This document shows positions 2,397-57,942 of a stretch of 64,000 nt of DNA, piece by piece (the first letter of the stretch is position 1; every line of letters starts with the position of its first letter). The notes beneath the pieces were generated by a model. The model did not search any database and was not told where the DNA came from. It saw only the letters and a list, made by a program, of their open reading frames with translations. The stretch is from assembly GCA_004194705.1 (NCBI GenBank), contig SADC01000006.1, positions 124,001 to 188,000 on the forward strand, written 5' to 3'. This DNA comes from Ditylenchus dipsaci. Its lineage: Eukaryota; Nematoda; Chromadorea; Rhabditida; Anguinidae. Position numbers and translations under genes: made by a program.

Positions 2397-2929
2397 GGGC
2401 AGGAGCAGCCTGTGTCAAATCACATTGTGCCACCGCAAATAGTGCCAAACTCAAATTGTGCCACCGCAATTATGCCAAATTATACTGTGCCCAATTTGAA
2501 TTGAGCCAAACTCAAATTGTGCCAAAATCAAACTACCAGAATAAAAATAAAAGAATAGGAATAAAAAGAATAAAAATTGATGATTTTTACAGTGAAATGT
2601 ATCAAATCGCGGCACAATTTGCGGTGGCACAATGAGATTTGACACAGGTTGCTCCTGGCAGGGCTTTAAAAACATCCGGAAGATACATCCGGATGTGGAT
2701 GTTTACATCCGAAACATCCACATCCGGCGGATGTGGATGTTGGATGTCAAAAAAATTTGAATCGGATGTCAGCGGATGTTTTCATTGATTTTTCATGGAT
2801 TTTTCTGAGGTTTCGGATGTTTCGGATGTCAAAATTTCACATCCGGATGTCGGATGTGGATGTCAATTTTTTTTGCCGGATGTGGATGTAGGATGTCAAA
2901 AAAAATTTTAAAAGCCCTGGCTCCTTCCC
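2397..2929. mobile_element. hAT-like element, word GTGCCA, 8-bp TSD
   Basis: Ends GGGCAGGAGCAGCCTGTGTC and the near-perfect complement (GGGAAGGAGCAACCTGTGTC when reversed). It is flanked by the duplication GAGATTCC at 2389-2396 and 2930-2937. Both arms consist of repeats of the word ATTGTGCCA separated by CAAA-type spacers. A second element (2659-2919) is inserted near its right end. It belongs with the element at 33012-33505, which has the same GGGCAG terminus but the word TTGCGCCA. Confidence 0.85.
2659..2919. mobile_element. Nested hAT-like element, word GGATGT
   Basis: Ends CAGGGCTTTAAAA and TTTTAAAAGCCCTG; flanks GCTCCTGG and GCTCCTTC form an imperfect 8-bp duplication. The interior is almost entirely the word CATCCGGATGT / GGATGTGGATGT in both orientations. 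It sits inside the element at 2397-2929. Confidence 0.75.
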
Positions 2930-3098
2930 GAGATTCCTGACTCAGATTTTTAGGCTGAACACGTTTAACATTTAAGCTACTCAAAAATTTAATATTTGAA
3001 TCACTTTTGTCTCGAGAGCAACTTCAAATTTTACACTAATGTTAAAACCTAAGCAAAAAGAACATGCTAACCATAATTCCGGTGCTAAAATCTAAATA

Positions 3099-3503
3099 CA
3101 GTTAGACCTCGCTATAGTGGCACCCCACAAGTTCGTTCCCACCTAGGGTCCGACACTTTTTTTAACCCAATTTTCAAAGTCTTTTATTCATTCTGTTATG
3201 ACAGTCTGGTCCAGATATCGTAAGGATTCCGATTTTGCCGATCGTTTTTTGAAAAGATAGAGTGAAACCTCGATATAGTGGCACCCATTTTTGAAATAGG
3301 TGCCACTATATCGAGGTTTTACTTTTTCAACCAAATTTTTTTTTTTTTTTTCAAAAAATGATCGTTAAAATCGGAATCCTTACGATATTTGCGACCCGGC
3401 TGTCATAACAGAATCGATAAAATGTTTCGAAAATTGGGTTAAAAGTGTCGGACCCTAGGCGGGAACGTACTTTTGGGGGTGCCACTATAGCGAGGTTCAA
3501 CTG
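3099..3503. mobile_element. Mariner-type palindromic MITE, full copy
   Basis: Starts CAGTTAGACCTCGCTATAG and ends with the inverse of CAGTTGAACCTCGCTATAG, flanked by TA on both sides (3097-3098 and 3504-3505), as expected for Tc1/mariner integration. It contains a second inner inverted pair (GAAACCTCGATATAGTGGCAC) around a centre near 3290, and the family motif GGGTCCGACACTTTTT. No coding capacity. Confidence 0.85.
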
Positions 3504-4364
3504 TATTGGCAATATGCACGGCGGTGAGGGCAAATGATATCTCCGAAAATAGAGCTTACTTACAGAGGCCATAAAACTCGTACTCTAACAAAATTCGGTG
3601 TGCGAGTTTAACTCATACAAACAAGCAAATTTTGTTAGAATACGATTTTTGTCGAATGTAAATTTTGCGAAAACGAGTTTTGTCAAATGCAAATTTCGTA
3701 GAATATGAGTTTCGTCAAATGCGAGTTTTGCTAATACGAGTTTTGTCAAATGCAAGTTTCGTAGAATGCGAGAAACGCGAAAACGAATCGGCCGTTCCCC
3801 TTACGCAATCCTCATTAAAATTCCTACAAAACAATATTTCATCTATACTCAGGCTGTCTACTGTGAAATAATCTATGTAATTTATTGACCTTTCATAAAA
3901 ACAAAGCTGGCATTTCAGTCCATGTCGCCAGCATCTTATTTGTCAATAAAATTATATATTTCACACCGGAAATTCATGTTTCCTGTTACCCACTTACCTA
4001 TTTTCCTATTACGCCTGCAATCAGAAGTCATTTTTGCTACAGGAAACTGTTATTTATAAATTAGGACTAACACAGTCTCTGTTTTAAAATATGTTTTTTA
4101 TTTAACACTTTTGTTGTTTAATTAGCGGGTCATAGACATGCCACTCCGAAGGTGAAAAAAAAAGCCGAGTACAAATACAAGGGGAAGTGAATGGAAAGTT
4201 CAAATGCAAAATTTGTATTTTTTAATAAATAATAATAAATCTAAGCAAGTTCACTAACTTCGCTAATGACAGTTTATTATGATATAATAAAGCTTCAAAA
4301 AAATGTTAAGTCATTATTTAAATGAAGGACCCCATGGGTCCAATATACTGAAAGGCGACTGTAT
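3504..4364. other. No gene seen
   Basis: Between the MITE and the tandem array I see no supported exon. Around 3590-3780 there are degenerate repeats of the words ACGAGTTTTGTCAAATGC and TTCGTAGAATGCGAG. They resemble the word-repeat elements elsewhere, but I could not find a clear target duplication. Confidence 0.4.
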
Positions 4365-4880
4365 TACAGTCAACTCTTGATACAGTCAACTCTCGATATA
4401 GTCAGCTCTCGATACAATCAACTCTCGATACAGTCCACTCTCGATATAGTCAGCTCTCGGTACAATCAACTCTCGATACAGTCAACTCTCGATATAGTCA
4501 GATCTCGGTACAATCAACTCTCGATACAGTCAACTCTCGATATAGTCAGATCTCGGTACAATCAACTCTCGATACAGTCCACTCTCGATATAGTCAGCTC
4601 TCGGTACAATCAACTCTCGATACAGTCAACTCTCGATATAGTCAGATCTCAGTACAATCAACTCTCGATACAGTCCACTCTCGATATAGTCAGCTCTCGG
4701 TACGATCAACTCTCGATACAGTCAACTCTCGATATAGTCAGATCTCGGTACAATCAACTCTCGATACAGTCAACTCTCGATATAGTCAGATCTCGATACA
4801 GTCAACTTTCGATACAGTCAGCTTTCAATACAGTCAACTCTCGATACAGTCAGCTCTTGATACAGTCAACTCTCAATAAC
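4365..4880. repeat. Tandem array, 16-bp monomer, 48-bp higher-order unit
   Basis: About 32 head-to-tail copies of TACAGTCAACTCTCGA with variants (CAATCAACTC, TAGTCAGATCTCGG). The variants recur in threes, so the true period is 48 bp. 48 is a multiple of 3, which creates a long open but meaningless reading frame. The monomer is nearly identical to the terminal inverted repeat of the mariner-type MITE at 37828 (CAATCAACTCTCGATAAATC). Confidence 0.95.
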
Positions 4881-18350: not shown

Positions 18351-21300
18351 GTCAGTTGTTTGATTTTATGGTACAGTCGAGAGAAGGGTAGAAAGCGGTG
18401 GCTTGTTGTCGATTAGCCAATGACTTAGCCAATTCCTAGACAATTACTTTAAATGTTTAATTAATTAAAGGAAAAGTACATAGTACCTTTAAAGTAGGAT
18501 AAGGTCATAAATATCAGATTTGACATGAAACGAGTAAAAACAAGGACAATTTTTGAAAACTTGTTGGTTCCCGCCTTAATTTGTACAGTTATCAACTGGG
18601 CAAAATCTAACTCAGGATGAGTGGGTGTTTTCGCTTCATAAAAGCGCCAAATAAACTTTTTTGATTATGATTTATAGAGGGCAAGGCGTGTTTTGCCTTG
18701 GAAACTATTTGTTTTTGATGATTCGGAATGACCACCCACTCGTTTGGACTCAAAATGAGACCCACCTAATTAACTGTAGAATTATTAGTTTATTACACGA
18801 GAAATTCTACAGTTAATTCGGTGGGTCTCATTTTTGAGTCAGAATGAGGTGATTATTCTGAGACATATAAAAATTTTGAAAAAAAACCACAGGGGAGACC
18901 ACCACAAGGGAGATCGGGGTCGACCTAAAGTTAACTAGTGCCGCATATTCAATGAAAAAACTGTGAAGGTTTTTTTCGGAAGAGCAGAAAATTGCATTTA
19001 TTTTTGTTTTTCATTAACAGGAAGGAAATTGCGACAAGTCCTACAAAAACGGCAGTCAATGTGAGTATGAAGTGCGACGAACCCCAATCTGCGGGCCTGG
19101 CTACTATCGCTCTGGTGGAGATGGTCTCAACTGCATTTTTGAGAAGGATCGACCAGCCACTTGCTCTGGATCCCACACCACCTCCAAGCCTAAGCCCAAC
19201 GATCAAAAGGCTAGATCCCCAACTTCTTCTTCTAAAGCCCCGAAGCCAACTAAGACCACAAAGAGTCCCAAATCGAATTTGACTCAAAAGGCTACAACCA
19301 CCAAGGGCCATAAAAGCTCTAAGCCTACTTCTCGATCTAGTCCAAATCCAGCTCCAAAGCCTACCGTATCAGCAGGGACCAGCAAAAAACCTTGCTTATC
19401 CAATAAGAAGCAAACCCCGGCCCAAAACCCCAGCACCCAGCACAGAAAAAACCCAAGCAATAACCAAACTTCAGGGAATTTTAGCAGTGCAGCTTCTGGA
19501 AGACTAACAAAGGGTTCAACAGCTCTGCCAACATCTAGCCAAACTGACGCGACCACTACATTTACTAGACGCAAATGCAGTTCAAGTAAACATTGCGACT
19601 GGAGCAGGACTAGAACTCGTGCGCCAGGTAATATGTGCTATGGTATAATGAAAGCATGGATAAGTTTTGTTCAAATTTTCGAATTCGCGTTTTTTTCTGC
19701 CAAAAGAGGAGTGATTTCAATATAGATATAGCTGTAGGATTTCTCGTATATTGTTCGAAATATTCTACCGTTGTCAAGTACAGTCCGCAGACCTGTATAC
19801 ATAAATTTTTCCAATCGTAATTTTTACTAATTTTATTTTTTAGCTACCCAGTCTTCTACCCAGTCTAAGACCACCAAAAAACCATTGACCAAGACTTCCA
19901 TTGCCACAGCTCACACAGCTTCTACTGGCCATGTCACTAAGCCATTCACAAAAAACCGGTCTCCAAAGGCAGTTGACCCAACTACCAAAGGTAATAGATA
20001 CCGTATTCTCTCTAATAGAACCACATGTGGTTCTATTTTTCAACCCCCTCGGGGGTGTGGTTCTATTAGAGAGTGTGGTTCTAATAGAGAGTGTGGTTCT
20101 ATTTTCAACCTTCTGAACGTATTCAAGCATTGCAGCATACGCGCATAAATTCTTCATTTCGGGCCTGCTTGGGTTTAGGGGGGACGCTCATTACTATACT
20201 TTTTATTTACTTTTGTCGCTCATGGCAGTCATGGTTATATCGATAACCTATATGAATAGTTTAATAAGTAATTTTGTTGATTAAGGTGATTATTTTCACC
20301 CCGGCCACCATAATCAACTCGATCAACCTAAAAAATAAAATACATATAGTAAAAGTAGGCGTCCTCCTAAACCAGAGCAGGTCCCAAAACTCATTAATAC
20401 TCTAGAGATATATCTTTATTACTATAATCAAATTTTCTTGCGCTTCCTCAAGATCGATTTCTTGTATCTGCTCAGCCAACTTCTTCTCATTTTGCGCGAG
20501 CTTCACCTTGCCTTGACCACTCGGAACCGGCCCAACTTTCTTGAAGCAGTAAGTGGCTTCGCCCCAACATCCATCGGTGGCATTGGGAACTCCGCACGAT
20601 TTGATTGACTCAACGATGAGCTCCTACAAGAGATTATCGCAGGCTTCGACAATCCATTGGAGTTAGACGGCCGTTGGCGCAGCTTGAGGGTCTTAAGGGG
20701 TGTGGCTCTATTAGAGAGGGTGGTTCTAATAGAGAGTGTGGTTCTATTAGAGAGAATACGGTAGTCAATTTTTGCTGTACTTTGATTCTGGCCGATTTCT
20801 GTCCGAAAAACTACAAATTTAAAAATTAAGGCCTTATACTCCAAAGTCTGTGGAATTCCAATTAAAATTATCACTTATTTTATTTTTTAGCTACCCCATC
20901 TCCAATGACTACTAAAAAACCATTGGCGACGTTTTCGACTGCCTCAGTTCACACAGGTTCAAGTAGCCATGTCACTCAGTCATTCACAAAAAACCGGTCG
21001 CCAAAGGCAGTTGACCCAACCACTGAAGGTTAATCTAACCTAATTTTGAATCTTTGTCTTTTAAACCTTTGTACTCACTTTTGATTTTTTGTAATTTTTT
21101 AAATCTCAGGCAAGGTTGGCCAGCGTATGTTAGGACCAACGTGGTGTCTTCAGCCGGCTGAAGTTCAACTAAGCTATCAGCCGGCTGAGGCTGAACGCTG
21201 AGGTGATTTTTTTTACCTGGCTGACGACCGAGGCTGAGGAAAATTTTTGGAAGTCAGCCGGCTGAGGAAAGATATCGTATTAAATTTTTAGCGTTTTTTG

Positions 21301-23760
21301 TTGTTTTAACTGTTTTTTCTGACAATTTTGAAGTCTTCAGTCGATAAAATAATTCAGTGATTAAATTTTCATCCAGGCTATTTTTAATTGTTAAATTTGA
21401 GTCATGCGGCTGAGTTTGGATTCAGCTCGATGAGCTTAACTCAGCCACAAGCTGGCTGAGGCTGATGACTGAGGTAAAAATCTACGCCGGCTGACGGCTG
21501 AGGAAAATTTTCCCAACTCAGCCGGCTGAGGTTGATGGCTGAGATAATCGTCGAGTATACCACCCTGGTTAGGACAGACTCGAACGTATGATATACTCTT
21601 TTCCGAGCCCATTCTAACATACGCTATCAAACCCTTGCCTAAGCATAAGCCTAAAAATTACAAAAATACTAACTGGGAGACCAAAGCAAAAAATCGGCAG
21701 GTATCAAGCATACACCGATTTTTTTCTACACCTTTATACAGCGTGTTTCAAAATTTTCTGACACTTTTAAACGGTTATAATTTATTCACGACTCGAATTT
21801 TAAATTTCTATAAAAGCATATAGACTCAATTTTTATGACATTATTATTTGCTATGTCAAGTCAAAGCCACGATTTTTGCTTTGTCACTAATCAACACCCA
21901 TCCCAACTCCCGATTCCCGCCTGAGGTTGGACTTTTGGACTCTGAGGTTTTCAAAATCAAAGCGAAATTTGTGGTTTTGACTTTATATACCGAGAAAAAT
22001 TCTCATCAAAAACTGAGTCGATCTGCGTTTACAGAAATTCAAAATTTGATCAGTGAAAAAAGTAATGACCGTTTGAAACGTGAAAACCCCAAAATACCCC
22101 CTCCAAAGAGTATTTTTCTCTAAGCCTACCTTTTCGGTTCCCCTGATTTTTTTTTCACCCCAATGCATTGCGATGTGGAGTGTGCTGGTCTTTGGCAGCC
22201 AAGAGACCAAATACCCTTGTTATCGGTGATTGTCGGTGCAAAAGTTGCAAAATAGGTGAAAAATTACAAAAGTTGGCTTAGAGAAAAAATACTCTTTGGA
22301 GAGGAGTTATTTGAGGGATACTGTTCGTTTAAATGTGTTAGAAAAATTTGAAACACCCTGCAGTTTTAGCTCCCATTGCATGCCCCAAAAACGAGTACTA
22401 CTCCAAATGTCCTCAATGTGCTGAATGGCAGTGCAAAAACATCAAACTTGCTAATGACCGTGCAGCCAATGAACACTGTGCTGATGGAAATGGCACCCAC
22501 TGCCCTTACAAAGCTGGTTGCTACTGCAATTTGCACCATGCTAGAAATGACCAAGGAAATTGTGTGCCTAATGATCAGTGCCATCAGAAAGGTTAAAACT
22601 TGGCTCTATAATTATTATTATTAATTATTTTAGTAACTGTGGTTACCCAAACAAAGTCTGTACCTACAACTACTAAGTGCCAGAAAAGCCCCAAGCCAAC
22701 TTCCCGATCCACTCCAAGTCCAGCACCTACGTCTACTAAAGGCATATTGAAGCAAAGCTATTACATTTTAATTTTTTATATTTTTCAGCAACTGTGCCTA
22801 CCCAACCACCTACAACTAAAATGCCCGGTGAATACTCGTTTTTTTTGGCAAACCTATTGCATCCTAATTTTTATTATAAATTTTTAGCAACTTTGCCTGC
22901 ACAACCACCTACAGCTGAAGTATTTGATCTAACCACTAACTGCGGCATATGCATGAATGCGTTAACTTCCCACTGCAGACCCAGTGATTTAAATCTTTAC
23001 CCGTGTTGTGGCCAGATTTTGGAAAATTACGAGGTGGATTAACAAAATAGTCCACTAGAAATACCTTATATCGCGAACAGAGTAACTTTACATCGGAGTA
23101 CCTTGTACAATCAGTATCAGTTGTTTCTAAAAGCGTGTTCCGACTGCTTTTTTTAGCTTTCCTGGTCACAGTGGACCATAGGTTTTTAGATGGCGTACAG
23201 AAATTTTTCGAAAAAGCCTCCAAAGATAATAGTTGGATATGTATACACTCCCTTACCTTAGACATCAATTCGATCAAGACTTTTAATTATACAGGGTGCC
23301 TAACCTTTTTTTGCACAGCTCCAGCCAAAAAAGCATAAAAGAATACCATGAGACCAACTTTTCTGGACATTTAAGTACTTTTTGAGGTTGAATTGCTCTG
23401 GAGAGCCAAGAAAAAAAAGTCAAGTTTGGTCAAAAAAATTATTGAAGAAGTGTCGACAGGCACCCAAAAACATGTTTTAGCCTTTTTGACGGCTAAAGCG
23501 TCGTAAAAAGAAAATTATGAGCATTTTTGAGCAACGCCGTATTGTTTATTTCTGCTTTAGAGCGAATTTGGAAAAGGTCACAGTCGCTCATATGCTTTTC
23601 AAATACTATAAAATTGCAGGACACTCTCCGCAACGCTGATCTTCTCATTATTTATCCTGTGTTAGCTGTAGATGGCCCAAAAACCATAGGCGGCTGTGAG
23701 CAACTTGATCCAAGCTATATTTGTAAAAGTTTTAGATTTTGCTCATCCAAAAAAAACTAA
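18209..23760 (+). CDS. Modular secreted TIL-domain protein, copy A
   Basis: Exons: 18209-18350 (signal exon, see separate entry), 19021-19627, 19844-19990, 20891-21028, 22364-22591, 22634-22741, 22789-22827, 22888-23033, 23620-23760. Exons 2-9 join in one frame of 518 codons including the stop. Order: a Cys-rich module (NCDKSYKNGSQCEYEV, CGPGYYRSGG), a long Ser/Thr/Pro/Lys linker, two copies of a 46-49-residue exon ending in KAVDPTT, a TIL (trypsin-inhibitor-like) domain with 10 Cys (CPKNEYYSKCPQC and GCYCNLHHARNDQGNC), short Thr/Pro linkers, and a C-terminal Cys module (CGICMNALTSHC, YPCCG, YICKSFRFC). TIL domains are known serine-protease inhibitors; inhibition by this protein is inference. 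A poly(A) signal AATAAA lies at 23849-23854. Introns carry a pogo-type element (20001-20761) and a hAT-like element (21137-21567). Confidence 0.8.
20001..20761 (-). mobile_element. Pogo-type element with transposase C-terminal remnant
   Basis: CCGTATTCTCTCTAATAG ends inverted at 20761, TA on both sides, arms repeating GTGGTTCTAATAGAGAG. On the minus strand at about 20390-20640 an open frame reads ELIVESIKSCGVPNATDG, then a Lys/Glu-rich tail. This resembles the segment W..V....I.RSF.KCGI...DG at the C-terminus of pogo/Tigger-type transposases. It lies in the intron between the duplicated linker exons of copy A. Confidence 0.7.
21137..21567. mobile_element. hAT-like element, word GGCTGAGGCTGA
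   Basis: Flanked by GTTAGGAC at 21129-21136 and 21568-21575. Ends CAACGTGGTGT and ATACCACCCTG. Both arms are repeats of CAGCCGGCTGAGG/GGCTGACGGCTGAGG. It lies in an intron of copy A. Confidence 0.85.
21576..22363. other. Intron of copy A, further repeats
   Basis: Contains GCCTAAGCATAAGCCTAA (telomere-like, reversed) at 21637-21655 and a foldback around 21850-22300 whose ends carry AAAGAGTATTTTTCTC and its near complement. No exon seen. Confidence 0.45.
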
Positions 23761-24452: not shown

Positions 24453-24706
24453 ATTATTTTTAGGGTTGTCGAATCGAGCGCTCGATTTCGAACTTTTCGC
24501 TCGAAAGTTCGAAAATTTTCGAATTCCGAGCGGAAATTTCGAATTTCGAGCGCTCGAAAAAAAATTTCGAATTATGCTTTCAAATTTCGAGCGCTCGAAA
24601 AAAAATTTCGAATTATGCTTTCGAATTTTAAGCGCTTATTTTCGAGATATAGTTCGGAACTTGCAGCACAGAAAAAAGAATGTAATGGTGAATTTTTCTT
24701 GTTTTA

Positions 24707-24956
24707 GAAAAATGCCAAGTGAAGTTTGGAAATCGTTTAAGAAAGTCGGTGGAAAGACTATTTTCACTTACGGGGAAGAGATTAGACTGCCAAAGAGTAG
24801 ATCAACAACTCATCTTTCGGGTCACCTGAAATCGGCAAGGCCCAAGGAAAAGTTAGCGAACAAAAATTGGGACCTTCTGAGGCGAAAAAAGCCAGAGCGG
24901 TGCTTTTTGCGACCTCAGAGTCTCCGATCTGCGCCGTTTGATCAAGCACAACTATG
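24707..24956 (+). pseudogene. BED zinc-finger fragment of a hAT transposase
   Basis: After the acceptor TTGTTTTAG an open frame begins MPSEVWKSFKKVGG and continues through STTHLSGHLKS. This follows the BED-finger pattern VWxxFxxxGxx....TxxLxxHL, but the Cys pair expected between the two parts is not visible. No catalytic domain follows; the element is non-autonomous. Confidence 0.55.
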
Positions 24957-25016
24957 AACAAAGAATGGTATTTTTTTCGGCCGCTTATTCGTTTGGTGTG
25001 GTAAAGCGGTCGTGTG

Positions 25017-25600
25017 CATAGTTGGACGCCTCTGAAAAACCACCGCCGCCGCCGCCACCGCCGGCGGCGTCGCCAACACCACCGCCGACGCCGGCGTCGC
25101 CACCGGCGGCGCAAAAACCTTGCTAAATTTCACCGCCGCCACCGCCGCTGCTTTACCACCACCGCCGCCGCCGGCGGCACTTTTTATTTTGCCACCGCCG
25201 ACGGCGCTGCCATCGCCGCCACCGCCGCCGCCAGCTAACGCTTCACTGTCAAAAATTTTTTTTGTTTAATTTATGTTTGTCATAGAATAAAATTTTGCAA
25301 GAGAACAGTAAAATTCTAAATTATGTCATTTTATCATGTTTTCGTAAGATGACCATTCAAAACAAGCATTGTTTTGGTACTTTGTAATTGGTGGTGCCGC
25401 CACCGCCGCCACCGCCGCCGCCACATCGCCGCCACCGCCGCCGCAGCCTAATTACTCCGCCGCACCGCCACCGCCGCCGCCGACCTCATTTTCAGCCGCC
25501 GGCTGCTGCGCCGGCGGCGGCACCTCATATCTTGCCGCCGCCGCCTGGTGGCGCCGCCGGCGGCGGCGCCGGCGGTGGCGGCGGCGGCGATCCAACTATG
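25017..25600. mobile_element. Nested hAT-like element, word GCCGCCACC
   Basis: CATAGTTGGA start and TCCAACTATG end, flanked by GTCGTGTG at 25009-25016 and 25601-25608. The arms (about 25040-25235 and 25390-25590) are nearly pure GCC/GGC words, a striking GC island in AT-rich DNA. The long open frames here are low-complexity artefacts. Confidence 0.85.
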
Positions 25601-25822
25601 GTCGTGTGTGGTCGATTAACCATGGTTTCGATCAATTTGTTTCTAAAAAATCCATTAATGACGCGGCGAAGCCGCTGAAAATTTTCGATTTCAAATCGAG
25701 CGCTCGAAAATTTCGAATTTCGAATGTCGAATCGAGCGCTCGACTCGAAAATTTCGAATTTCGAATATCGAATCGAGCGCTCGACTCGAAAATTTCGAGC
25801 GCTCGACAACCCTAATTATTTT

Positions 25823-27818: not shown

Positions 27819-28875
27819 TAGGGTTGAGTGATCGGTAATTACCCGGGTGATTCTCCGGGTAATTACTCGTGTAATTACCCGGAGAAATACTAAGTATTTC
27901 TCCGTAAAGAAAAATCGGAGAAATACTATTTTTTAGTATTTATTGCAGTTGACATTCGATATTTTTTTCTGAAAACTGTTTTTTTCTGCTGCTCTATTCG
28001 TATTATAGATGGAAAATATAGATGTCCGAATTCAAGCCCTTTTCCTGGTGTTGGAATTACTACAATCGAGTTGAAGAAAGAAATGCAAATGGGAATCTAA
28101 CAGGGGTCGGTTTGTGCAAGTTCTGCAATGCTCGCTACAAGTCACATGTGAAAAGAATGAAGAAACACTTGGAGGTTGGTACTTATAAAAGTATGAAGCA
28201 TTCTAATTTTCTGTTTTGCTTTAGAATTGCGTCGAAGTCGAAGCCGGGAGGCAATGTTTACTTTCTAATTATGCAGGGATCACTTCCCGCTTGAGCCATG
28301 CTTTTCGTTTTCACTACTGGTCTCCTTTTTAATGTCGAAGGTTCGACTCCCAGCTGATACATTTTTTCATTATTTTATTTTTCTGCGATATCTTTTTTAT
28401 TTTCATGCTGATATCTTTTGAATTTTTTATTTTACAAGTATAATTGCTTTATTCATGGAAAATTTTATGGCAATTATGGTCGGCGATTATCACAATCGCC
28501 ACTAACCATTCACTTTTTATTAGGATTATCTATTAACTAATCCACCTACCCTACTCAGCCAGAAATTTTTCGGTTTAGGTATCATCCAGGTGTTTTGAGT
28601 GATATCCAGATGGTTCGGGTACTATCCAGGGGTTTGGGTACCATCCATGTGATTTGGGTAACATCCAGGTGTTTTGGGTGATATCCACATGGTTTGGGCA
28701 CTATCCAGTTGATTTGGGTACCATAACGGTGGTTTGGATACCATTCAGGTGATTTGGGTACCATCCAGATGGTTTAGGTATCAGCAAATAGTATTTCTCC
28801 GCTTTTCGGGTAATTACCGGTAATTACCCGGGTAATTACCTGGAAAGTATTTCTCCGGAGAATTACCCAACCCTA
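27819..28875. mobile_element. hAT-like element, word GGTAATTACC, with BED exon
   Basis: TAGGGTTG start and CAACCCTA end, flanked by AATTTTTG at 27811-27818 and 28876-28883. Arms are copies of GGGTAATTACCCG and GGAGAAATACT. The inside carries a BED-finger exon (28022-28180) and a degenerate 20-bp minisatellite at about 28571-28785 (GGTACCATCCAGGTGATTTG). Confidence 0.9.
28022..28180 (+). pseudogene. BED zinc-finger exon of hAT transposase
   Basis: Open frame with SWCWNYYNRVEERNANG, then CKFCNARYKSHVKRMKKHLE. The CxxC pair and the HxxxxxxxH pair fit the BED-type finger, which is the N-terminal DNA-binding module of hAT transposases. The frame passes a likely donor at about 28173-28180 and no RNase-H-like catalytic part follows. 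Confidence 0.7.
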
Positions 28876-29375: not shown

Positions 29376-29488
29376 TAGGGTTGTCGAGTACTCGAAATTT
29401 CGAGTACTCGACTCGATATTCGAAACTCGAAAAATATCGAATAATACTCGAAATTACTCGATTTCTAGTACTCGACTCGACAACCCTA
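29376..29488. mobile_element. Miniature hAT-like element, word TCGAGTACTCGA
   Basis: Only 113 bp: TAGGGTTGTCGAG start, CTCGACAACCCTA end, AGTATAAT on both sides (29368-29375, 29489-29496). The interior is purely the word TCGAGTACTCGA and ATATTCGAA-type spacers. Same termini as the elements at 24461 and 27819 but a different word. Confidence 0.9.
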
Positions 29489-32900: not shown

Positions 32901-35900
32901 AATTACTCATCTCAACTCTAGCAATATCGCTACAATTCACCCTGTGGTACAGTTAATCCGTAGCACAGTTAACCGTCCAGTACAGTTAACCCCTAGCACA
33001 GTTAACCGTGCGGGCAGCCGACGATTGCGCCATTTCAAATTGCGCCAATTCAGATTGCGCCACATTCAAATTGCGCCAATGCAGATTGCGCCACTGCAAA
33101 TTGCGCCAAAATCAGATAGCGCCACTGCAAATTGCGCCAAAATCAGATTGCGCCACTGCAAATTGCGCCAAAATCAAATTGCGCCACTACATACTCTAAT
33201 CAAAGTCAGGCAAATGCTTTTTTTTATCTGATCTCAACGAATTTTGTTCCTTTTTACTATTAGGGCTGACTGTTTTCATGTCCTTCAATGACCAATTTCA
33301 GTAAAATGGCCAGAAATTTGCAGGGTTGTAATGGCGCAATGTGCAGTGGCGCAATTCGATTTTGGCGCAATTTGCAGTGGCGCAATTCGATTTTGGCGCA
33401 ATTTGCAGTGGCGCAATTTGCAATGGCGCAATCTGCATTGGCGCAATTTGAATGTGGCGCAATCTGAATTGGCGCAATTTGAAATGGCGCAATCGTCGGC
33501 TGCCCAACCGTGCAGTACAGTTAATCCCTGGCACAGTTAACCGTCCAGTACAGTTAACCCTTTAGCACAGTTAACTTTCTAGTACAATTAATACAATGAA
33601 AATGACCAAATATGTACGAATATATTACCGGTCGTAATATGTACGAATATATTAAAAAATATGTACGAATATATTACCGGTCGTTTGATTGGATTTAAAA
33701 ATGACCGGTCCAATTCCAACCCTATTTGATTGCCCCATATATTAAACTGTATAATTTCTCGTATATTGTTAGAAATAATCTACAGTTCGTTTCAAGAACC
33801 TACCATAAGAGCCCGTCAAATTAGTTTTATTTGTTGGCGAGATTTGACGTTGGCGAGTTTTAAGTGGAATTTTTATACTTCTCAAGTGTAAGGGTGAGCT
33901 AACTGGCTTAGTAGAGTCGGCAGCCCTGCCTAAATTAATTCGTGCGTTTAAAAGTGTATTTATGATTGAAATTCTCACTAATTTTATTTTTTAGTTAGCC
34001 AATCTTCTAGGATCACCAAAAAACCACCGACCGTGTTTTCCATTGCCACAGTTCACACAGGTCATACGGGCCATGTCACTCAGGCATTCACAAAAACCAG
34101 CTCTCCAAAGGCAGTTGACCCAACGACTAAAGGTTAATTTAAATTTTTGCCCTACCCCAATTTTGTGTTAGTCTTTGTGTTGATTTTTTATATTTTTTTA
34201 GAATAGTTTTTTAGAATTAGGCAAGAGCTGCCAGTGTATGCTAGGACAGGCTTAAACATGAGTCTAACATGAGTCTCTGTCTACTTTTGCCTAATCCCGA
34301 TAAATTACAAAAATAGCAACAGGAGAACCACGGCAAAAATAGACATTTTTCTATAGCATTATAGTTTTAGATCCCATTGCATGCCCCAAAAACGAGTATT
34401 ACTCCAGATGCCCTCAATGTGCAGAATGGCAGTGCAAAAACATCAAATTAGCTAATGACCGTGCAGCCAATGAACACTGTGCTGATGGAAATGGCACCAA
34501 CTGCCCTTACAAAGCCGGCTGCTACTGCAATTTGCACCATGCTAGAAATGACCAAGGAAAATGTGTGCCCAATGATCTGTGCCACCAGAAAGGTTAAAAC
34601 TTGGCTCTATAATTATTATTATTAATTATTTTTAGTAACTGTGGTTACCCAAACAAAGTCTGTACCTACAACTACTAAGTGCCAGAAAAGCCCCAAGCCC
34701 ACTTCCCGATCCACTACTAGTCCAGCACCTACGTCTACTAAAGGCATATTGAAGCAAGGCTATTACATTTTTATTTTTTATATTTTTTAGCAACTGTGCC
34801 TACCCAACCACCTACAACTAAAATGCCCGGTAAATACTCGCTTTTTTAAATTTTTTTATGATTTTAAGTAACTGTGCCCACCCAACCACCTACAACTGAA
34901 ACCGTGCCTACCCAGCCACCTCCTACTGAATTGCTCTGCGACAAATGCATGAGTGTTATAAATTCCCACTGCAGATTCAGTGATTTCAATCTTTACCCGT
35001 GCTGTGGACTGAATTTGCAAAATTATAAGGTAAATAAACCAGATGGATCGCGAAAAAAACTCACAAAAACTATCGGTGTTTTTTCTCAAACTATTATTAA
35101 AAATCCAGTTGACGGTAGTTTTCATTCTTTTTGATTTTTTAAATTTTTTGTCGATTTTTTTGTTAACATTTGTAGAGAGCCTTAAACTGACTGAATATTT
35201 ACGGTAATATACGGTATGTGAAATTTCGTATAAGTGTACACAAAGATACCAGCATCGGTTGGGATTGTTATTTTTCCAGATCATTGACAGTAAAAAAGGT
35301 GTAGGCAAAATGGTCTTACAAGGTGCACAATTAGTGGTAAATTAAAGCGGATACGGTAAACTCTACGATTACGCTAATATACTTTTATAAAAAAAAGCCT
35401 CCAAATAAACTTATATTAGGCTGATTTTGGGGAATAAGGCGTCTTTTTGTACCGTTGACTGATTTTTCCAGATGGCTGAGAATAAGCACACAATTATTCC
35501 AAATCATAATGAGACGTGACAAACTAACTGTGAAATTTCTCGAGTAATATACCAGAAAGTTAATTCATATTGTATGATATTAAAAATTCGAATTCTGCAG
35601 TTTTTCTACAGTTATAAATAACTTCAATTTTTTGTATATTACACGAGAAATCTCACAGTTAATTCAGTGAGCCTCAAATTGACAAGCGAGGTACCCTGAC
35701 TGTGACCTGGGGGAAATTCGATAAAAAAAATTGTGCATATTCTTGTAGAGCGTGCCCAAGTTCCTGACATATCTGGCTCCCCAGCTCTGAAGGCCCACAA
35801 AATGTGGTAGAAGGGATCTAAAAACACCTTGATACCTCTATCGTGGCTTTTCATAGCCGACCCTTGGAGGTCGCTTTCACATGTGATTTGGGCATGCTCT

Positions 35901-38584: not shown

Positions 38585-38656
38585 GGTGGAGGCGTAGTGT
38601 ATTGGCAGCACGTTGGCCCGGTAATCCAAAAGCTGGTTCAATTCCAGCCACCACCA
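38585..38656 (+). other. tRNA-like core of a hairpin-flanked repeat
   Basis: Folds as a tRNA: GGTGGAG pairs with CACCACC with one mismatch, there is an A-box-like GGCGTAGTGTATTGGCAGC, and a 5-bp T stem with loop TTCAATT (B-box GGTTCAATTCC). The anticodon arm is defective (C instead of U before the anticodon, imperfect stem), so it is not a working tRNA. The flanks TTTGTCCAGAGG and CCTCTGGACAA extend the stem. A second copy is at 53777-53849: a SINE-like repeat. Confidence 0.6.
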
Positions 38657-39187: not shown

Positions 39188-39374
39188 CTTGCACAAATGG
39201 GCGAAGCCAGGGGAGGCAGGGGGGTGGCTGAGGGGCTATAGCCCCCCCCCTGTCAGATTTTTCGAACAACATTGCTGATTAAAAACACTATAAAACTCGA
39301 AAACGGTGTAGGGAAAATGACCTCTCTGGGGTCAAAACACCAACCCCCCCAGTCAGATTTTTCAGGCTACGCCT
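39188..39374. mobile_element. hAT-like MITE, same family as 8773-8963
   Basis: Shares CTCGAAAACGGTGTAGG and the terminal GGCTACGCCTCTG, with GGGGGCTATAGCCCCCCC near the left end. The flanks (CTTGCAC / CCTGCAC) are an imperfect duplication. Confidence 0.6.
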
Positions 39375-39477
39375 CTGCCTGCACCTAAAATTGAACTTAA
39401 AAAAGTGTCAGACCCTAGGTGAGAACGAACTTTTGGGGGTGACGGTTTATCGAGAGTTGACTGTATTAAGATTCTAT

Positions 39478-39600
39478 TATTCTAAAAAAAAACCCAGCCA
39501 ACTTAATCTTTAGTTTTTTTGCGTTTAAATATTTATTTAAATAAGGCAAAGATTGCAAAAAATTAATTTAGCGTGTACAATTTTTAAATATTTAATATTG
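39478..39600 (+). pseudogene. Relic of a third TIL-gene upstream region
   Basis: Aligns with the sequence immediately 5' of copies A and B (CTTTAGTTTTT, GCAAAAAATTAATT.AGCGTGTAC, TTTTAATATTT), then breaks at the insertion of a pogo-type element at about 39602. No signal-peptide exon follows. It suggests the tandem family once extended further. Confidence 0.55.
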
Positions 39601-39739
39601 TACCGTATTTCCTCTAATAAGCGCCCCTGCTCCATTAAGCGCCCCCGCTCTAATAAGCGCCCTCCCTGGAGAGGGGTTTGAAAAATAAGCGCCCCTGCCT
39701 AATAAGCGCCCCCCCCTCTCAGGGCTATTTTGCTATTTT

Positions 39740-41053
39740 GAAAGAAGACACAACACACAGTTAATTTAGAATTAGAAGGGCAGTTTTTTAAGCAAATTGA
39801 CTACAGTCGACGCTCTCTATAACGACTCGGTTTAGCCGGTCCCTTGAGAGTCGTTATAGAGAGCTTCGACTGTATGCTAAACACCAGTATGGTGTCAAAA
39901 TGTCACAGTTCTGAGTTTTTTGAAATAGCGCAAAAAGTATTTAACAAATACAAATAAATAAAAAAAAAATTTAAAAATGATCCACTAAAACTATAAAGAA
40001 TATACCTATATTTTTTAATAAAAGTATATTATAAAAATATATAAATACATTTTTTAAAAAACACTTCTTTATTTGAATGAGGGCATCCATGGCACAGTAT
40101 GAACCAAAATGAACCGAAACCGAACCTTGGTTAACTTTAAAGTTAACCAAAGTAAAAGTGAGAGCACTTTACTTTTTTTTTAAAAATACAACACAAAATA
40201 GGCGAAGTTGCATTTTGAAACACCTCGACCGCAATCTCTACCTCGACCTCAACCAACCCCCAGACTTCGACCTACACCCGCTCACTGTGAAACCCTATAT
40301 CATGGCCAAAATTTTTTTTGAGAATCGACCGGCAAAATCGGAATCGTTGCTTCACACTTCGGAGAGACTGACGAATCAGTTTTGGCAAAAAAAATTAAAA
40401 ATTGAACTAAAAAGTGTTGGACCCTAAGCGAGAACGAATTTCTGGGGGTGACGATTTATCACTTGTTGATTTTTACAAACTAAAGTCAAGTCTTTTTTTT
40501 TTATTTTATAAATATTTAATTGCAGTTGACTCACTATATATGCAGCCCAGTCAAGTTTTGGATTCAACACCTTTTAATACTATGTCCAGCGCAGGGTAGC
40601 GGCGGGTTGATTGTGGGATCTTTTTAGCCTTATGTATGAAAAATCAGGATTTTGAATGTACCTCTGAAACTTCATTGGACATACATTGCTTAACGATTAC
40701 TCTAAAAAGTGTGCTCGGCGCCGATGGGAAAAAATTGATCAAAACTGTGTTTCAACCATTTCTAAAGGTTTTTCATACTCAAAGACGATAGAAAACACAA
40801 AGTTTAGCCAAGCGTTATATACCGTACGGAATTTTCGTGGAAATTTCGGTTAAAAATTCAATCATTTGAAGTTAATGAATGAGGCATAATAAAGCCATTA
40901 AAAATAAAAATTTGATCGAACACATTTCCTCCACATATTTTTCAAACTCAAAATTTTCGAGTACTTCACTCGATACGAATCAAACCCCACAACTTATGGC
41001 TTGTTCACGTTGTTCGAGTTAGAGTTCGAGTTAGAGTTAGAGTTCGGTAAGAG
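39740..41053. repeat. Right arm of 1.3-kb inverted repeat
   Basis: Reverse complement of 37228-38553, with single-base differences scattered along it (for example CCGTACGG against CCGTATGG near 40820). A 69-bp mini-MITE lies at 39804-39872. Confidence 0.85.
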
Positions 41054-41756
41054 TGTTCATTAACCAAAACCCAACTCTCTCTAACTTGATCACAACTTAT
41101 ATTTTGTTAAAATTGAAAAGAAAAATTTGATCTTAAGACAAAGAGGAATTTTGATTCTTCTTTTCACGCACAATCAAGATTGACAAGGAGGTCGTAAATC
41201 AATCACTTGGTGAAATCTGCCTGGTTAACTACTAAACACGTATTTTTATATAATAGGTGACCAAGGAAAAATTATTTTTTCATAATTTTTTTGTGTGACT
41301 CTTAGCAAAAAATAAATGCTTCAATGTTGTAAGAAAATCTGTAAAAACATTTGAAAAACATATTTTCTAAAAAATTCAATAACTTCGGTGACAATCTGTG
41401 AAAAACTTCAGGCTTTATTCAGGAAAACACGATTTAAAAAAGGAAATGCTGTCAGAATATTATACAAACTCAGTCCTAAGTGTTCCTCTGAATAATTGCG
41501 CAGCCGCTAAAATATTTGCTAAATCCAATCTTTTGTTTTTTTGAGCACAACTCACTGTCTACTTTCATTGGTGGCAATTCTACTCTACTACAAAAGTGTC
41601 AGGCGAATGGCGAAGGGGTTCAATTAGAGGGGGGGGGGCTACAATTAGAGGGTGGCAAAATCGGCTTAAATAGGCTGATTTTCAGGATGGGCTGATATTT
41701 TTCAACCTTCTTCCTAGGGAAAGTCACTATTAGAGGCAGGGGGGCGGGGGGGGAGG

Positions 41757-42314: not shown

Positions 42315-42371
42315 CTTAGGCCTACTTAGGCTTAGGCTTAGGCCTTAGGCTTAGGCTTAGGTTTAGGCTTA
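42315..42371 (+). repeat. Interstitial telomeric repeat (TTAGGC)n
   Basis: About nine TTAGGC units with few deviations, followed within 60 bp by AATAAGCCTAAG on the other strand. It sits inside a palindrome (GGGACATTTTTGGCGTTCTGCC and complement). It is duplicated at 47322-47380 with the whole unit. Confidence 0.9.
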
Positions 42372-42501
42372 GGGACTAAAAAAATGTCTTACGAACTACA
42401 AAATAGCTGAAAAAATAAGCCTAAGTGGCTTAAACAGAACATAGGGCAGAACGCCAAAAATGTCCCATTTGGTAGCCAAACGTCTACTAACCATAAATAC
42501 A

Positions 42502-47246: not shown

Positions 47247-48339
47247 ATAAATACGGGGTATAGACGTTTGGCTACAAATGGGACATTTTTGGCGTTCTGC
47301 CCTATGTTCTGTTTTAGCCACTTAGGCCTACTTAGGCTTAGGCTTAGGCCTTAGGCTTAGGCTTAGGTTTAGGCTTAGGGACTAAAAAAATGTCTTACGA
47401 ACTACAAAATAGCTGAAAAAATAAGCCTAAGTGGCTTAAACAGAACATAGGGCAGAACGCCAAAAATGTCCCATTTGGTAGCCAAACGTCTACTAACCAT
47501 AAATACAGTGTGCTGCCAGAGGGATTTGAACCAGCAACACTTTTAAATGTGTTTGAAGTTGAATTAAAACAATTTCCGTGCGGGACCAGATACGGACAAG
47601 AGATATATTCCCCCTGTGAGTTTGCCAAAATAATAAAATTGCAGGTTCTTTATTTGTTTCCTTTTGCTGATCCGTGTGCCTATCAAATATTTGCATGGCA
47701 ATGTGCATTCTTCACGATACCTCATTTGTATTGCCTGAGTGGATTTACACTTTTCCATTTAGTCGTATTTTTGGAGCGTAGTTGTGCTATATTTTACGTG
47801 AAGACTTACGAAAAATGTCTGTCAAAGCAGGCATTGTTGCTTGTTCCGTTTTTGTAGGCAACTTTTATATACAAAAATTGTGATTTCTGTGAATTTATGA
47901 TTTAGATAATCGCTACTTTAATTTGCTGCTTCTATTTGTTTTACTCGGAAGATTTTAAAATTTCCAAATCTCACTGCAGTGTCATCTCACCGACCAATTT
48001 ATCGAAAATGGAGTTTATGAACGAGTTGATGCTAATCACTGACATTTTAGTCACTGTAGGCGACTGCTTTCTCCGTGGTGTAATTTATAGGCAGAATAAA
48101 AGGTAGGCTTTAAAACATGTCTATTAAAAATATCGACATATAAACAGGCAAAAAAAAAGACACAAATTCAAGGTTGTCGGCCGCCCGAAAATCGACATTT
48201 TATGTGTTTTACTTTTCGGCTCGGCCGGCCGACAACCCTAGACATCTTACCTTCAGACATGCTGAATCCGAAATTGATAGTGATCAATCCGTTAGACTTA
48301 TTAGCGGTTTGGGTTTTTTGGTACTTTTTTTGTTTTGTT

Positions 48340-49445
48340 TTTTGTTGACCATGTAAAAATTGTTGACTATGAAAAAAATGTTGACCATGAAAAAATTGTT
48401 GACTATGAAAAAAAGTTGACTATGAAAAAAATGTTGACTATGAAAAAAATGTTGACTATGAAAAAAAGTTGACTATGAAAAAAATGTTGACTATGAAAAA
48501 ATGTTGACTATGAAAAAAATGGCTAAACTATACTTTAGTGCGGTTGCTCAAAAACGCGTTTTAAGTATTTTTCTCGACGTAATTCAATGTGAAACGTTCA
48601 AAAAACATGTTTTAAGGTGTGGGAAAAACCAAAAACCGAAAAAAAAATTTTCGTGTTTTTTTTTTTTGCCTTGGGGGACCAAGGCAAATTTTTAAATTTT
48701 GATAAGATAAGCTATTTATGATAAGACAAAGACTTGTGCCGACTACACCTGATTATGAAGAAGATGAACAAGACATCATCGAAGAGGCGGAATTTGATTA
48801 AATACTGTTTTTTGAAAAATGTATGATCAACTATTGAATAAAAATGAATGAACCAAAAATGAAATATAAACATGCTTTGATTTGCAGGGCCTACTGCATA
48901 AAAAAAGTATTATGCGTGTTATATATGCATAATTTGCTTATCGAGTGTTTGGTTTCTAGGGTGCGCTTGTGTGCGCATCTCAACTCCAAGCCCCCAAGCC
49001 CCCTACGCCCCCGGAGGGCGTAGGGGGCTTGAGAGTTAGAGATGCGCACACTAGCTCACCCTAGAAATGAATCCGAGAATAAAAACATGTAATATGCACA
49101 ATATTTTTGCCTTGTCCGGAAATCGAACACTGTGAAAAAGACCGAAAAATACCAATTTTAGACCAAAAAATGAAAATTTTCCAAGAATTTTTTTTTTCGG
49201 TTTTTGGTTTTTCCCACACCTAAAAACATGTTTTTTGAACGTTTCACATTGAATTACGTCGAAAAAAATACTTAAAACGCGTTTTTGAGCAACCGCACTA
49301 AAGTATAGTCCTACCAAAAAAATGTTGACTATGAAAAAATGTTGACTATGAAAAAAATGTTGACTATGAAAAAAATGTTGACCAAGTGAAAATCAGTTGA
49401 CTACGTAAAAATTGTTGATTATGTGAATTTGTTGACTATGCATAT
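48340..49445. repeat. Foldback element with minisatellite arms
   Basis: Outer arms are head-to-tail copies of TTGACTATGAAAAAAATG (48350-48525 and 49318-49440). Inner arms contain GCTCAAAAACGCGTTTTAAG and complement. The middle holds a GC-hairpin copy (48940-49110). Confidence 0.8.
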
Positions 49446-49476: not shown

Positions 49477-50491
49477 CAGTCGACTCTCTGATTAACGTCT
49501 TTCAAGGTACGAGCCCTAAAGGGACGTTAGTCAGAAAGTCGTTAATCAGAGAGATATTTACTTATCTCTTATACGCCGGACGTTATTCGGAGTTTTCATA
49601 ATTTATTTGGCACATAATTACTATGAACAATAACAACCAACAACTAATATAATAATATTGTTTTGTTTTGGAAGAATAGCCGTAACGGACATACCGCATT
49701 TGCTCTAATTGCCGCCCCGGGGTGGCAATTAGAAGCGTGCAATTTTTTCAAAGTTCGAGTGGTTCAAAACTCGTGTTTTATTCACTGTTTGAGCTATGTA
49801 AAAAGGGTGGTAGGTGGATTTGACGGCGGAAAATTTGGCGGCGGAATATTTGGCTGCGGAAAATTTGGCAGAGTTTCAGAAGAGCCATTTTGTATGTTTG
49901 CTTTGGAATTCCAAATTTCTGACACCAGATTCGTGTCCAGCATGGTAGCTTTGCTTAGAAAAATGCTCTTTAGTCTTAAAAATCACTCATATTTCGAGTT
50001 CCGCCCAAGACAAGAAACATTTAAACAAAAAAATTTTAACAATTTTTTTTCTTGAAAAAACATTCAGTCTGTCGAAATGCTTGTTGTCTTGGATGGAACT
50101 CGAAACATGAGTGATTTTTAAGACTTAAAAGCATTTTTTTAAGCAAAGCACTATGCTGGACATGAATCTGGTGTCAGAAATTTGGAATTTCAATGCAAAC
50201 ATACATAATGGCTCTTCTAAAATTTCGCCAAATTTTCCGCCGCCAAATATTCTGCCGCCAAAATTTCCGCCGTCAAATTTTTCGCCGCCATTAGACAAAT
50301 TTTTTGCCGCCATCGGACTAATCGCCGCCACTGCGGCGATTAGAGGGGCGGGGCGGCAATTAGAGGAAATACGGTAAGTTTGAATGTGAATTTAATTGTG
50401 AACAGACGTTATTCGGAGAGTCGTTTATGAGGCTTGGACCGGCTCTAATGGGATGTTAATCAGAGAGGGACGTTTATCAAAGAGTCGACTG
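49477..50491. mobile_element. Mariner-type element, TIR CAGTCGACTCTCTG
   Basis: CAGTCGACTCTCTGATTAAC start, inverse of CAGTCGACTCTTTGATAAAC at the end, TA on both sides. It encloses the element at 49694-50374. No transposase recognised. Confidence 0.85.
49694..50374. mobile_element. Nested pogo-type element, word CCGCCAAA
   Basis: CCGCATTTGCTCTAATTGCC start and the inverse of CCGTATTTCCTCTAATTGCC at the end, TA flanks. The arms contain GGCGGAAAATTTGGCGGCGG-type words and long complementary stretches (CATGTTTCGAGTTCC). Non-coding. Confidence 0.8.
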
Positions 50492-55042: not shown

Positions 55043-55361
55043 CCTCACACCAGTGTTCTCAATAGTCAGAGGCAGAATGCCAAAGTCAGAGGCAGAATGA
55101 CATCAAAGTCAGAATCAGAAGTCAGAGACAGAATTTTTCAAAGTCAGAATCAGAATAATTGTGATTTTGATTCTGACTTTGAAAAATTCTGACTCTCACT
55201 TTTGATTCTGACTTTGAAAAATTCTGACTATCATTTCTGATTCTGACTTTGAAAAATTCTGACTCTCACTTTTGACTCTGACTTTCAAAAATTCTGACTC
55301 TGATTTCTGATTTTGACTTTCAAACTGTCTGACTATCATTTCTGACTTTTAATTTCATATA

Positions 55362-55606
55362 CCGTATTCTCTCTAATAGTACCACATGTGGATTATTTTT
55401 CAATCAGCCGAAAATCGGACAATTTTGAATTCGATCTTGAGATTTTTCGGTGCTCAACCAAGATCTGAAAAGTGAAATCGGTAGAGCTCGTGGAGTTAAG
55501 AAAATGCATCAAACAGCTTTGCAAAATCCTTTCTCTAAGCTGAGATATAGGTCCTCAAAGTTGGGGTGTGGTTTAATAGAGAGTGTGAACTAATAGAGAG
55601 AATACG
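55362..55606. mobile_element. Nested pogo-type MITE
   Basis: CCGTATTCTCTCTAATAG start, CTAATAGAGAGAATACGG end, TA flanks. Interior as in 17768-18008. Confidence 0.85.
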
Positions 55607-56153
55607 GTAGTCTGACTTTTATTTCTGACATTGAATTGTAATTAATTCCTGTCATCATTTTGCTTTTTTGCTGGATTTTCTTTTGACTTATATAAATTTT
55701 GCTACCAATAGAAAAGTGTTGTTGCTCTGACTTTTGAAAAAATTTTGAGCTCGTTGTTTGGCTATGTTGTTTCATATGACTAGCTTCCAGCGTCGGGTAC
55801 TGGCGTCAACTACCACGCCTAGCTTTTCCGAAAGTGGTATGCCAACAGCTAACTAAAACTTGAGTCACTCCAAATACACAACAGAATAGCTTTCTTAGTA
55901 CAGTGCCTTAATGTGTGCTGCTGCTTAGCGAAGATGGTTTTTTTTGACCAGGACTTATTCGCTTACCTTTTGTAATATATTATTTATTTTACTTTCTTCT
56001 TCTCTCACTCTTGCAAAATGCAGTTCACAAAAGATTTTCGAAACAATTTATTCCAAAGCACTTTTTTAAACAGGTAAATAGTTTTCCTACATATGTTGCA
56101 TCCAAGAATTAGAATTAACAACAAGTTGTGCATCAAGAAGTTCAAATTCAGTT

Positions 56154-56802
56154 TTATTTCTTTGTCCTCTTGTTGCAAGACCAGCTGAGGAGATTACGCG
56201 CTCGATAGGTGCACTCGTTGCGGGAACTGTTAAAATCTCGAGAGCCATAATCGCCAGTGACTTGTACTCCTAGAGCAAACTCATCAAGTGAAGTAATTGA
56301 ATGGCAGAAAATTACCGTATCGATCAGCTTTTGCCAGTAGACTAGTGGGTCAATAGAAGAGCTTGCTGAAGCTTTGGCTGTTATGCCACGTCGCAAGATA
56401 TCCCCAATCCATGATTTCGCTCCGGCTTGAATTCCTGCTCTGCTTTGTCTTTGTTCCAGCTCTTTTTGTGCTATTTCTTCCAAGTACAGGTCTAATTCAT
56501 TTGTCGGTTGCACATTGCTTGTTGACTGTCCCGAAGTTGCTTGGCAATCAATCTAGGATTCTGTCTAATCAATATTTCTATGAGAAATCTTGAAATATTA
56601 CCAACGGTTGGATAGAACTGATCGCAAGCTCCAAATCTCTTTTGCTGACTAAGTGGACTGTGTTAGGATCAAAGCACGCAGCTATAATGTAGATAGGATC
56701 GAATCTGGAGTCCAGTACATCTAACATCCATCCAAACCGAGCACTCAGGATTTTTTCCAGCGTTGTGGCCATGCCATTACCATTTTCCTGAAACACGATC
56801 AA
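56154..56802 (-). pseudogene. hAT transposase C-terminal half, decayed
   Basis: 56802-56578 reads LEKILSARFGWMLDVL and FDPIYIIAACFDPN, the part of hAT transposases that includes the (L/F)DP motif of the catalytic core end. 56513-56154 reads ELDLYLEEIA, then SSSIDPLVYWQKLI. DPLxYW-type sequence is the start of the hAT C-terminal dimerisation region; the downstream part is unrecognisable. Stops and frameshifts separate the pieces; the N-terminal half with the BED finger is not found within the element. Confidence 0.75.
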
Positions 56803-57586
56803 TTAAAAATGAAAACGACAATTCAAATTACAAACTTTAGACTTCAAAATTGACTTTTTGAGAGCTTTCAAGTAGCCATAGCAGAGAGATATTGTCACGT
56901 AACTTTCTCCTTGAATTCGAATGAGCACATTGACCATAATATTCGTAAGTTTATAGACATCCCTCAGGAACTAAAACGAAACGAGATAAGAAAGCGATAG
57001 ACTAACAAAAAACCTCAATTTCAGATGAGTTTAGTTTGTTTTCTGAGAAAAAAGCTGTGAGCAAAGTCAGAATTCAAAGTCAGAGTCAGAAAAAAGTTCA
57101 GAGTCAGAAATGATAGTCAGAATTTTGAAAGTCAGAATCAAAAGTGAGAGTCAGAATTTTCAAAGTCAGAGTCAGAAATGATAGTCAGAATTTTTCAAAG
57201 TCAGAATCAGAAATCAGAGTCAGAATTTTGAAAGACAGAGTCAGAAACTTTCTGATTCTGACTCTGACTTTGAAAATGTTTGATTGTCATTCTGCCTCTG
57301 ATTCTGATTTTAAATTTTCTGACTGTCATTTCTGATTTCTGACTCTGACTTTGAAAATTCTGACTCTCACTTTCAATTCTGACTCTGTCTCTGACTATTG
57401 AGAACACTGCCTCACACCTTTCAAAATTTGAATCTTAGTGTAATAGGGAAATTTGGCGCCAAACGAAAATCTATCAAAAATGGTCAGTTTAAGGCCGTTT
57501 TTGTTCATGCTTCTGATGAGGTTTTTTTTATTTTTGGGTTTCGCATGCTTATACCCAAAATTTTCCTCACATTCAGGGCTTTCGAA

Positions 57587-57942
57587 CAGTGTTGTGAGTG
57601 GCACCGGTGCGGCTCCGGCACCGGTTGCTCACGTCACCGCACCGGTGCCGTGAGTCGGTGCCGGTGCCGAAATTCTGAAAAGGGAAATTACATCGGTGCG
57701 GCACCGGCACCAGGCAGCTCACGGCACCGCACCGGTGCCGTGAGCTGGTGCCGGTGCCGAAAAATTACCAGTTGGTGCGGTGAGCTGGTGCCGGTGCCGA
57801 AAATTCTTCGGTCAGTGCCGTGAGCTGGTGCCGGTGCCTGAATTTTCACGATCGGTGCCGTGAACCGGTGCCGGTGCCGAAATTTTTGGGGTCGGTGCCG
57901 TGAGCTGGTGCCGGTGCCGCAATTCTAAGATTTACAACACTG
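57587..57942. mobile_element. hAT-like element, word GGTGCCGGTGCCG
   Basis: CAGTGTTGTGAG start and ACAACACTG end, flanked by CTTTCGAA at 57579-57586 and 57943-57950. The interior is entirely GCACCGGTGCCGTGAG words. Its terminus CAGTGTT equals that of the element at 55051-57409. Confidence 0.9.

Follow-up and report, generated by a model that had tools for sequence, protein, structure and literature searches.

The arms of hAT DNA transposons in the nematode Ditylenchus dipsaci are arrays of a short word, and here we describe how this word differs between sister elements, based on a 64,000-nucleotide stretch of contig SADC01000006.1 (assembly GCA_004194705.1, positions 124,001 to 188,000; hereafter, the window) and on searches of the same 227-Mb genome. 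In most lineages of the family with the terminus TAGGGTTGTCG, a triplet of the word is swapped in register inside a kept frame of 41-bp period; that is, the arms are not replaced as a whole. We consider it probable that the element's own BED finger binds the arm word, and that finger and word change together while the tips of the element stay constant.

Many words within one frame

The BED exon of the TAGGGTTGTCG family was searched genome-wide (150 hits scored), the search was then repeated with a second lineage, and 36 short stretches, each comprising the BED exon and the preceding arm, were taken. Denoting each word by the triplet xyz that follows CG in the palindrome CGxyzz'y'x'CG, these stretches carry AAC, AGT, ATT, AGG, GCC, ATC, GCG, AGC and GGT. 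Two of these words, AGT and AGG, are each found in two BED lineages, which brings the number of lineages to eleven. The tally of the pattern at the first arm position adds ACG, ACC and AAT, and therefore at least 12 words lie behind one terminus. The pattern TAGGGTTGTCG-NNN-CG-N6-CG occurs 991 times in the genome (control, 0). Among 100 listed sites, the N6 core is palindromic in 77 (1.6 expected by chance), with 10 different cores, and the 23 non-palindromic sites include AAGGCT six times.

The arms of this family consist of tandem 41-bp units in varying number, and the frame CGN6CGAAAATTTCGNNNNTCGNNNNTCGNNNCGNNNCGN6CG (51 bp long, period 41, 25 fixed letters) was drawn up by eye on the basis of several lineages. 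Scoring it on 31 arms or copies gave 22 to 25 of the 25 fixed letters in 17 of them (shuffle maximum, 18). The sequence-only reading of the window had supposed that the subterminal address is "replaced wholesale", and this does not hold: 23 or more of the 25 letters are retained by the best copy in 10 of the 11 lineages (GGT, both AGT, ATT, both AGG, GCC, GCG, AGC and AAC), and it is mainly the word letters that differ. A relative with a different word (L017) scores 22. Low single copies also occur within lineages that have the frame, e.g., 13 in L088 and 15 in the left (5') arm of the window element at 24461, the 3' arm of which has a best unit of 23; the window elements at 29376 (15/25) and 27819 (12/25 in each arm) do not show the frame. 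Across 43 pairs of units with different words, identity is 91% at the fixed letters and 39% at the word letters, and the own word accounts for 197 of 240 slot letters, compared to 35% for other words; choosing the best unit biases these comparisons toward the fixed letters, while the word letters played no part in the choice. Genome-wide, there are 1597 occurrences of a 26-bp piece of the frame, compared to none of the control; among 100 listed sites, 83 are palindromic and 26 of 53 neighbor distances equal 41 bp. In 17 multi-copy groups (one of which consists of two merged elements), the majority core is found in 66 of 70 copies, as opposed to at most 47 in shuffles.

Word change in register is also seen in the TAGGCTTGG family, whose arms align in register. 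The eight ATCCCG copies of one element (L031) correspond to ATCCCA at 5 positions in L025 and at 6 in L060, and to ATCCGG at 4 in L070; none of the eight positions is unchanged in these three elements. The change is partial in L026 and L020, with TTCCCG at 3 and 2 positions and ATCCCG retained at 4 and 3, respectively. Four elements of this and the TATGCTTGG type (L020, L025, L026 and L031) share 79-83% identity in the hAT C-terminal region and 57-71% in the BED exon.

Alternatively, these patterns might be driven by neutral concerted evolution, in which the arrays homogenize by slippage or gene conversion, and the differences in the BED exon ride along, without any reading of the words by the finger. 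The tandem 41-bp units of varying number are in line with this view. Homogenization alone, however, offers no reason for the same constant positions in ten lineages, and change is mostly confined to the triplet, with the fixed letters, the CG and the palindromic form retained. Two further points argue against neutral change, which we regard as unlikely: the two arms of a coding element have a word in common (below), and BED fingers bind subterminal sites in Hermes (PMC10368747).

BED helices and their words

The sequence-only reading had further raised the question of whether each word family has a BED sequence of its own, and a distinct helix for each word lineage is seen where it could be assessed, i.e., in the TAGGGTTGTCG family: helix and word are both readable in 34 of 40 copies (four of the six left out have no readable helix and two have no palindrome in the stretch), and all 34 fit one word per helix. 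None of the 17 helix readings, some of them from decayed copies, is found with two words, compared to at least 9 misfits in shuffles. The variable helix positions, counted back from the zinc histidine, are those of Hermes Q64, S66, N67 and R70, which are reported to contact bases (PMC10368747). An AlphaFold model of the BED exon is fair over the finger and retrieves the Hermes BED weakly.

Several observations weigh against a finger that reads its word. Since each element carries its helix and its word together, descent alone could give the association in 34 of 34 copies, which needs no function and thus also suits neutral change. AGT and AGG are each found with two quite different helices. 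Among the 11 lineages, word distance is correlated with distance at the helix positions that match the Hermes base contacts only at a borderline level (Mantel test, r=0.25, P=0.053), which again leaves room for the neutral alternative; for the other BED sites, the values are r=-0.02 and P=0.53. The ATC lineage is the sole one of the 11 without the frame (14/25). Finally, the own word loses in AGC (13 vs. 14 letters for another word) and ties in one AGG lineage (18 vs. 18), both outcomes being due to the single half-sites, AAT and AGT. The Mantel correlation is the sole test here that reaches beyond common descent, and, being borderline, it amounts to no more than a hint.

It is also conceivable that the words are read by a host factor or act via hairpin structure, rather than being bound by the transposase finger. 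The many palindromic words, together with inverted arms, make foldback structures possible, and the inner sites of Hermes are reported to be partly dispensable, with a cellular factor proposed (PMC10368747). A host factor, however, would favor one common word and not one per family, and the BED helices vary between word lineages; hence, we consider this explanation quite improbable.

Under the hypothesis that we favor, recognition by the element's own finger, several BED fingers of the transposase multimer would dock on the arrayed words, by analogy with Hermes. A new word would be passed along the tandem units of an arm through slippage or gene conversion and become fixed by selection for a finger that matches it; the finger may change before or after the word. 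The tips and the catalytic part would need no change. With a new word, an autonomous element would presumably be free of its many non-autonomous relatives, which still carry the old one. A more specific version, which we put forward tentatively and with more doubt than confidence, is that of a modular, re-programmable address, with a fixed 41-bp rack, a CG anchor and an exchangeable triplet, where the BED helix is swapped in step and the change of key lets the element escape its non-autonomous swarm.

The window elements and their relatives

The elements of the window, with their coding remnants, are as follows (a point marks rows without a strand).

2397..2929, strand., non-autonomous hAT-like element; termini GGGCAGGAGC with 1 mismatch; word TTGTGCCA; exact duplication GAGATTCC
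2659..2919, strand., nested element within the element at 2397; matching termini CAGGGCTTTTAAAA; word GGATGT
21150..21542, strand., GGCTGA / TCAGCC array; 18 exact copies in either orientation; element status not confirmed
24461..25814, strand +, TAGGGTTGTCGA hAT element with BED remnant; word CGAGCGCTCG (triplet AGC); duplication ATTATTTT; termini exact over 10 letters
24712..24954, strand +, decayed BED exon in the element at 24461; helix RSTTHLSG; no call from Pfam alone
25017..25600, strand., element CATAGTTGGA, nested in the element at 24461; word GCCGCCACC; exact duplication GTCGTGTG
27819..28875, strand +, TAGGGTTGAGTG element; word CGGGTAATTACCCG; exact duplication AATTTTTG
28022..28291, strand +, BED-like exon remnant in the element at 27819; zf-BED E=0.0075, under the Pfam cut-off
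29376..29488, strand., TAGGGTTGTCGA element of 113 bp; word CGAGTACTCG (triplet AGT); duplication AGTATAAT; termini exact over 10 letters
33012..33505, strand., GGGCAGCCGA element within ACAGTTAACC satellite; word TTGCGCCA; exact duplication AACCGTGC
55051..57409, strand -, CAGTGTTCTC hAT element; word GTCAGA; exact duplication CCTCACAC
56090..56269, strand -, remnant of the hAT C-terminal dimerisation region in the element at 55051; Pfam Dimer_Tnp_hAT E=9.4e-8
57587..57942, strand., CAGTGTTGTG element; word GGTGCCG; exact duplication CTTTCGAA; termini with 1 mismatch

Ten elements with 8-bp target duplications had been listed from the sequence alone, and for eight of them an exact duplication with inverted termini (0-1 mismatch per 10 letters) was found. 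The duplication letters of the insert at 2659-2919, which interrupts the element at 2397..2929, agree at only 6 of 8 positions (GCTCCTGG/GCTCCTTC), and a search around the GGCTGA array (listed as 21137) gave no duplication with termini. An imperfect inverted repeat at 21105-21645, seen by eye (CTCAGGCAAGG...GCGTATGTTAG), encloses this array, which may belong to a different, foldback-type element. A mechanical scan of the window for 8-bp duplications adjoining inverted termini gave 25 pairs (0-5 in each of ten Markov shuffles), some of which lie inside long palindromes or arrays and hence are no elements. The word arrays themselves are present as described, and so are different words behind identical termini, although the words of the GGGCAG pair (2397 and 33012) are one base apart (TTGTGCCA / TTGCGCCA) and the element at 27819 has only TAGGGTTG, not the 41-bp frame, in common with those at 24461 and 29376.

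Ordinary microsatellites, hit by insertions or grown by chance, would be another source of such words, and some of the arrays are indeed detected as tandem repeats. The words, however, sit inside exact target duplications, in both arms, and are found behind the same terminus in hundreds of copies. Further, joining the flanks of the element at 33012 minus one duplication restores an unbroken ACAGTTAACC satellite, in register and without the word of the element; that is, the site before insertion was a different satellite. These results contradict the microsatellite explanation, which we consider highly improbable. Searching the genome for each terminus joined to its first word gave 214 ends for the element at 57587, 343 for 55051 and 356 for 33012 (at most 2 mismatches), as well as 331 for 27819 (at most 3 mismatches), compared to zero for the reversed control patterns of all four; these counts represent the abundance of that pairing, and the same terminus with other words falls outside them. 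Thus, the four are repeat families, each with its own word. TAGGGTTGTCGA alone occurs 2548 times (reversed form, 6).

With 8-bp duplications, short terminal inverted repeats and the C-terminal region all present, the elements of the window and the genome belong to the hAT DNA transposons, either as such or as derivatives shortened by deletion, in agreement with the sequence-only reading; the C-terminal remnant at 55051, the BED-like exons at 27819 and 24461, and 13 coding relatives all support this identity. The relatives come from a genome search for the hAT C-terminal region (150 of 2005 candidates scored, all 150 matching), after which 20 loci of about 10 kb around hits were taken. In 13 of these loci (L020, L022, L025, L026, L027, L029, L030, L031, L035, L036, L037, L038 and L039), an element bounded by termini and an exact duplication on either side of the coding region was accepted by eye from the scan. 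Several of the 13 are deletion derivatives (L022, L036 and L037 have little beyond the C-terminal part), and none was established as intact. In all 13, both arms are built of one common word that is rare in the middle. The hAT genes are split by introns. Pfam zf-BED scores exceed the cut-off in two TAGGGTTGTCG-family lineages, AAC and ATT (E=6.1e-5 and 1.9e-4), fall below it in GGT and AGC, and give no call for the TAGGCTTGG family. The helix RSTTHLSG of the element at 24461 is identical in L058 and L059 (both decayed) and one residue off GSTTHLSG of L088 and L092, where the zinc ligands are complete; all five carry the word AGC.

Words also vary between families of coding elements: GGGAC in the TAGTGATGG and TAGAGATGG elements, GGGCACA in the CAGGGTTCG element, CCGGGC in the CAGGGGTGG element, CGGGTA and GTTCGA in two TAGGGTTGTC elements, GCGAGA in the TAGTGTTGG element, and ATCCCG, ATCCCA and CCCGTT in the TAGGCTTGG and TATGCTTGG elements. 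A word is common within L022/L036/L037 and within L027/L035, and overlaps partially among L020, L026 and L031. A wider scan for duplications and termini (324 kb) gave 37 rows, including some loci listed twice and two chance pairs inside arrays, with filters that miss known elements.

The window holds further repeats. A very long inverted repeat with many nested inverted matches (37176-41054) has GAGTTAGAGTTCG-type arrays near its outer ends, while two structures are foldback-like: a TGTTGACTATGAAAAAAA array pair around inverted inner sequence (48343-49423), for which no separate 8-bp duplication was established, and inverted ATTTGGCGGCGGAAA arrays about a short spacer (49818-50290). Two arrays of CTTAGG, the nematode-type telomere word, have equal length and score and lie about 5 kb apart (42325-42373 and 47331-47379); possibly, they terminate a unit that is duplicated or retroelement-like. 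At 58772-59906, the frame list has Gag-like open frames in which a CCHC-type knuckle was recognized by eye, suggesting a retrotransposon. There are also two similar open frames that both begin MRRTPICGPGYYRSGGDGLNC (19072-19725 and 32198-32878), and a satellite of about eleven 48-bp units that is open as a repetitive frame (4365-4878).

Known systems and meaning

It is already known that hAT BED fingers recognize subterminal sites and that BED specificities are diverse. In Hermes, the housefly hAT element, short repeats close to the left end are bound by the BED fingers of several subunits, and the system resembles the one described here in its N-terminal BED finger, short repeats close to either end, a quasi-palindrome (in Hermes, bound by two BED domains) and the 8-bp target spacing (PMC10368747). 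The repeats of Hermes are, however, AAGT-like, irregularly placed and asymmetric (PMC10368747), whereas those described here form units of fixed period with words that are mostly palindromes in the studied family and differ between sister elements. BED-type proteins vary widely in specificity, and four hAT proteins have motifs that are found in their subterminal regions (PMC8097297). The CGGBP proteins and hAT-19-type transposons similarly combine a BED finger with a Hermes-type DNA-binding region and have diverse specificities, often for CGG or CGC; that study covers mostly domesticated genes across many species, and its available part describes no series within one genome with common termini, a kept frame and an exchanged word (PMC8097297). 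Both ends of the mosquito element Herves likewise contain a short subterminal motif (CG/AATTCAT) to which its transposase binds, but this is one motif, and no re-keyed sister elements appear in the available part of the report (PMC3143072). The fish elements Tgf2 and Tol2 likewise require an N-terminal zinc finger for end binding and make 8-bp duplications, but the work seen covers a single element, with no word exchange (PMC4890040).

What is new here is that one genome contains a series of sister elements that are re-keyed while their array frame is preserved. This series represents a natural experiment in protein-DNA recognition, with eleven BED lineages, each beside its own word on one DNA molecule, and the rest of the site largely constant. 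If the fingers do bind their words, a BED recognition code would be readable from sequence, and the series would show how a transposase changes together with the dozens of sites that it binds. Under the same condition, re-keying as an escape of these elements from their own non-autonomous parasites would become testable.

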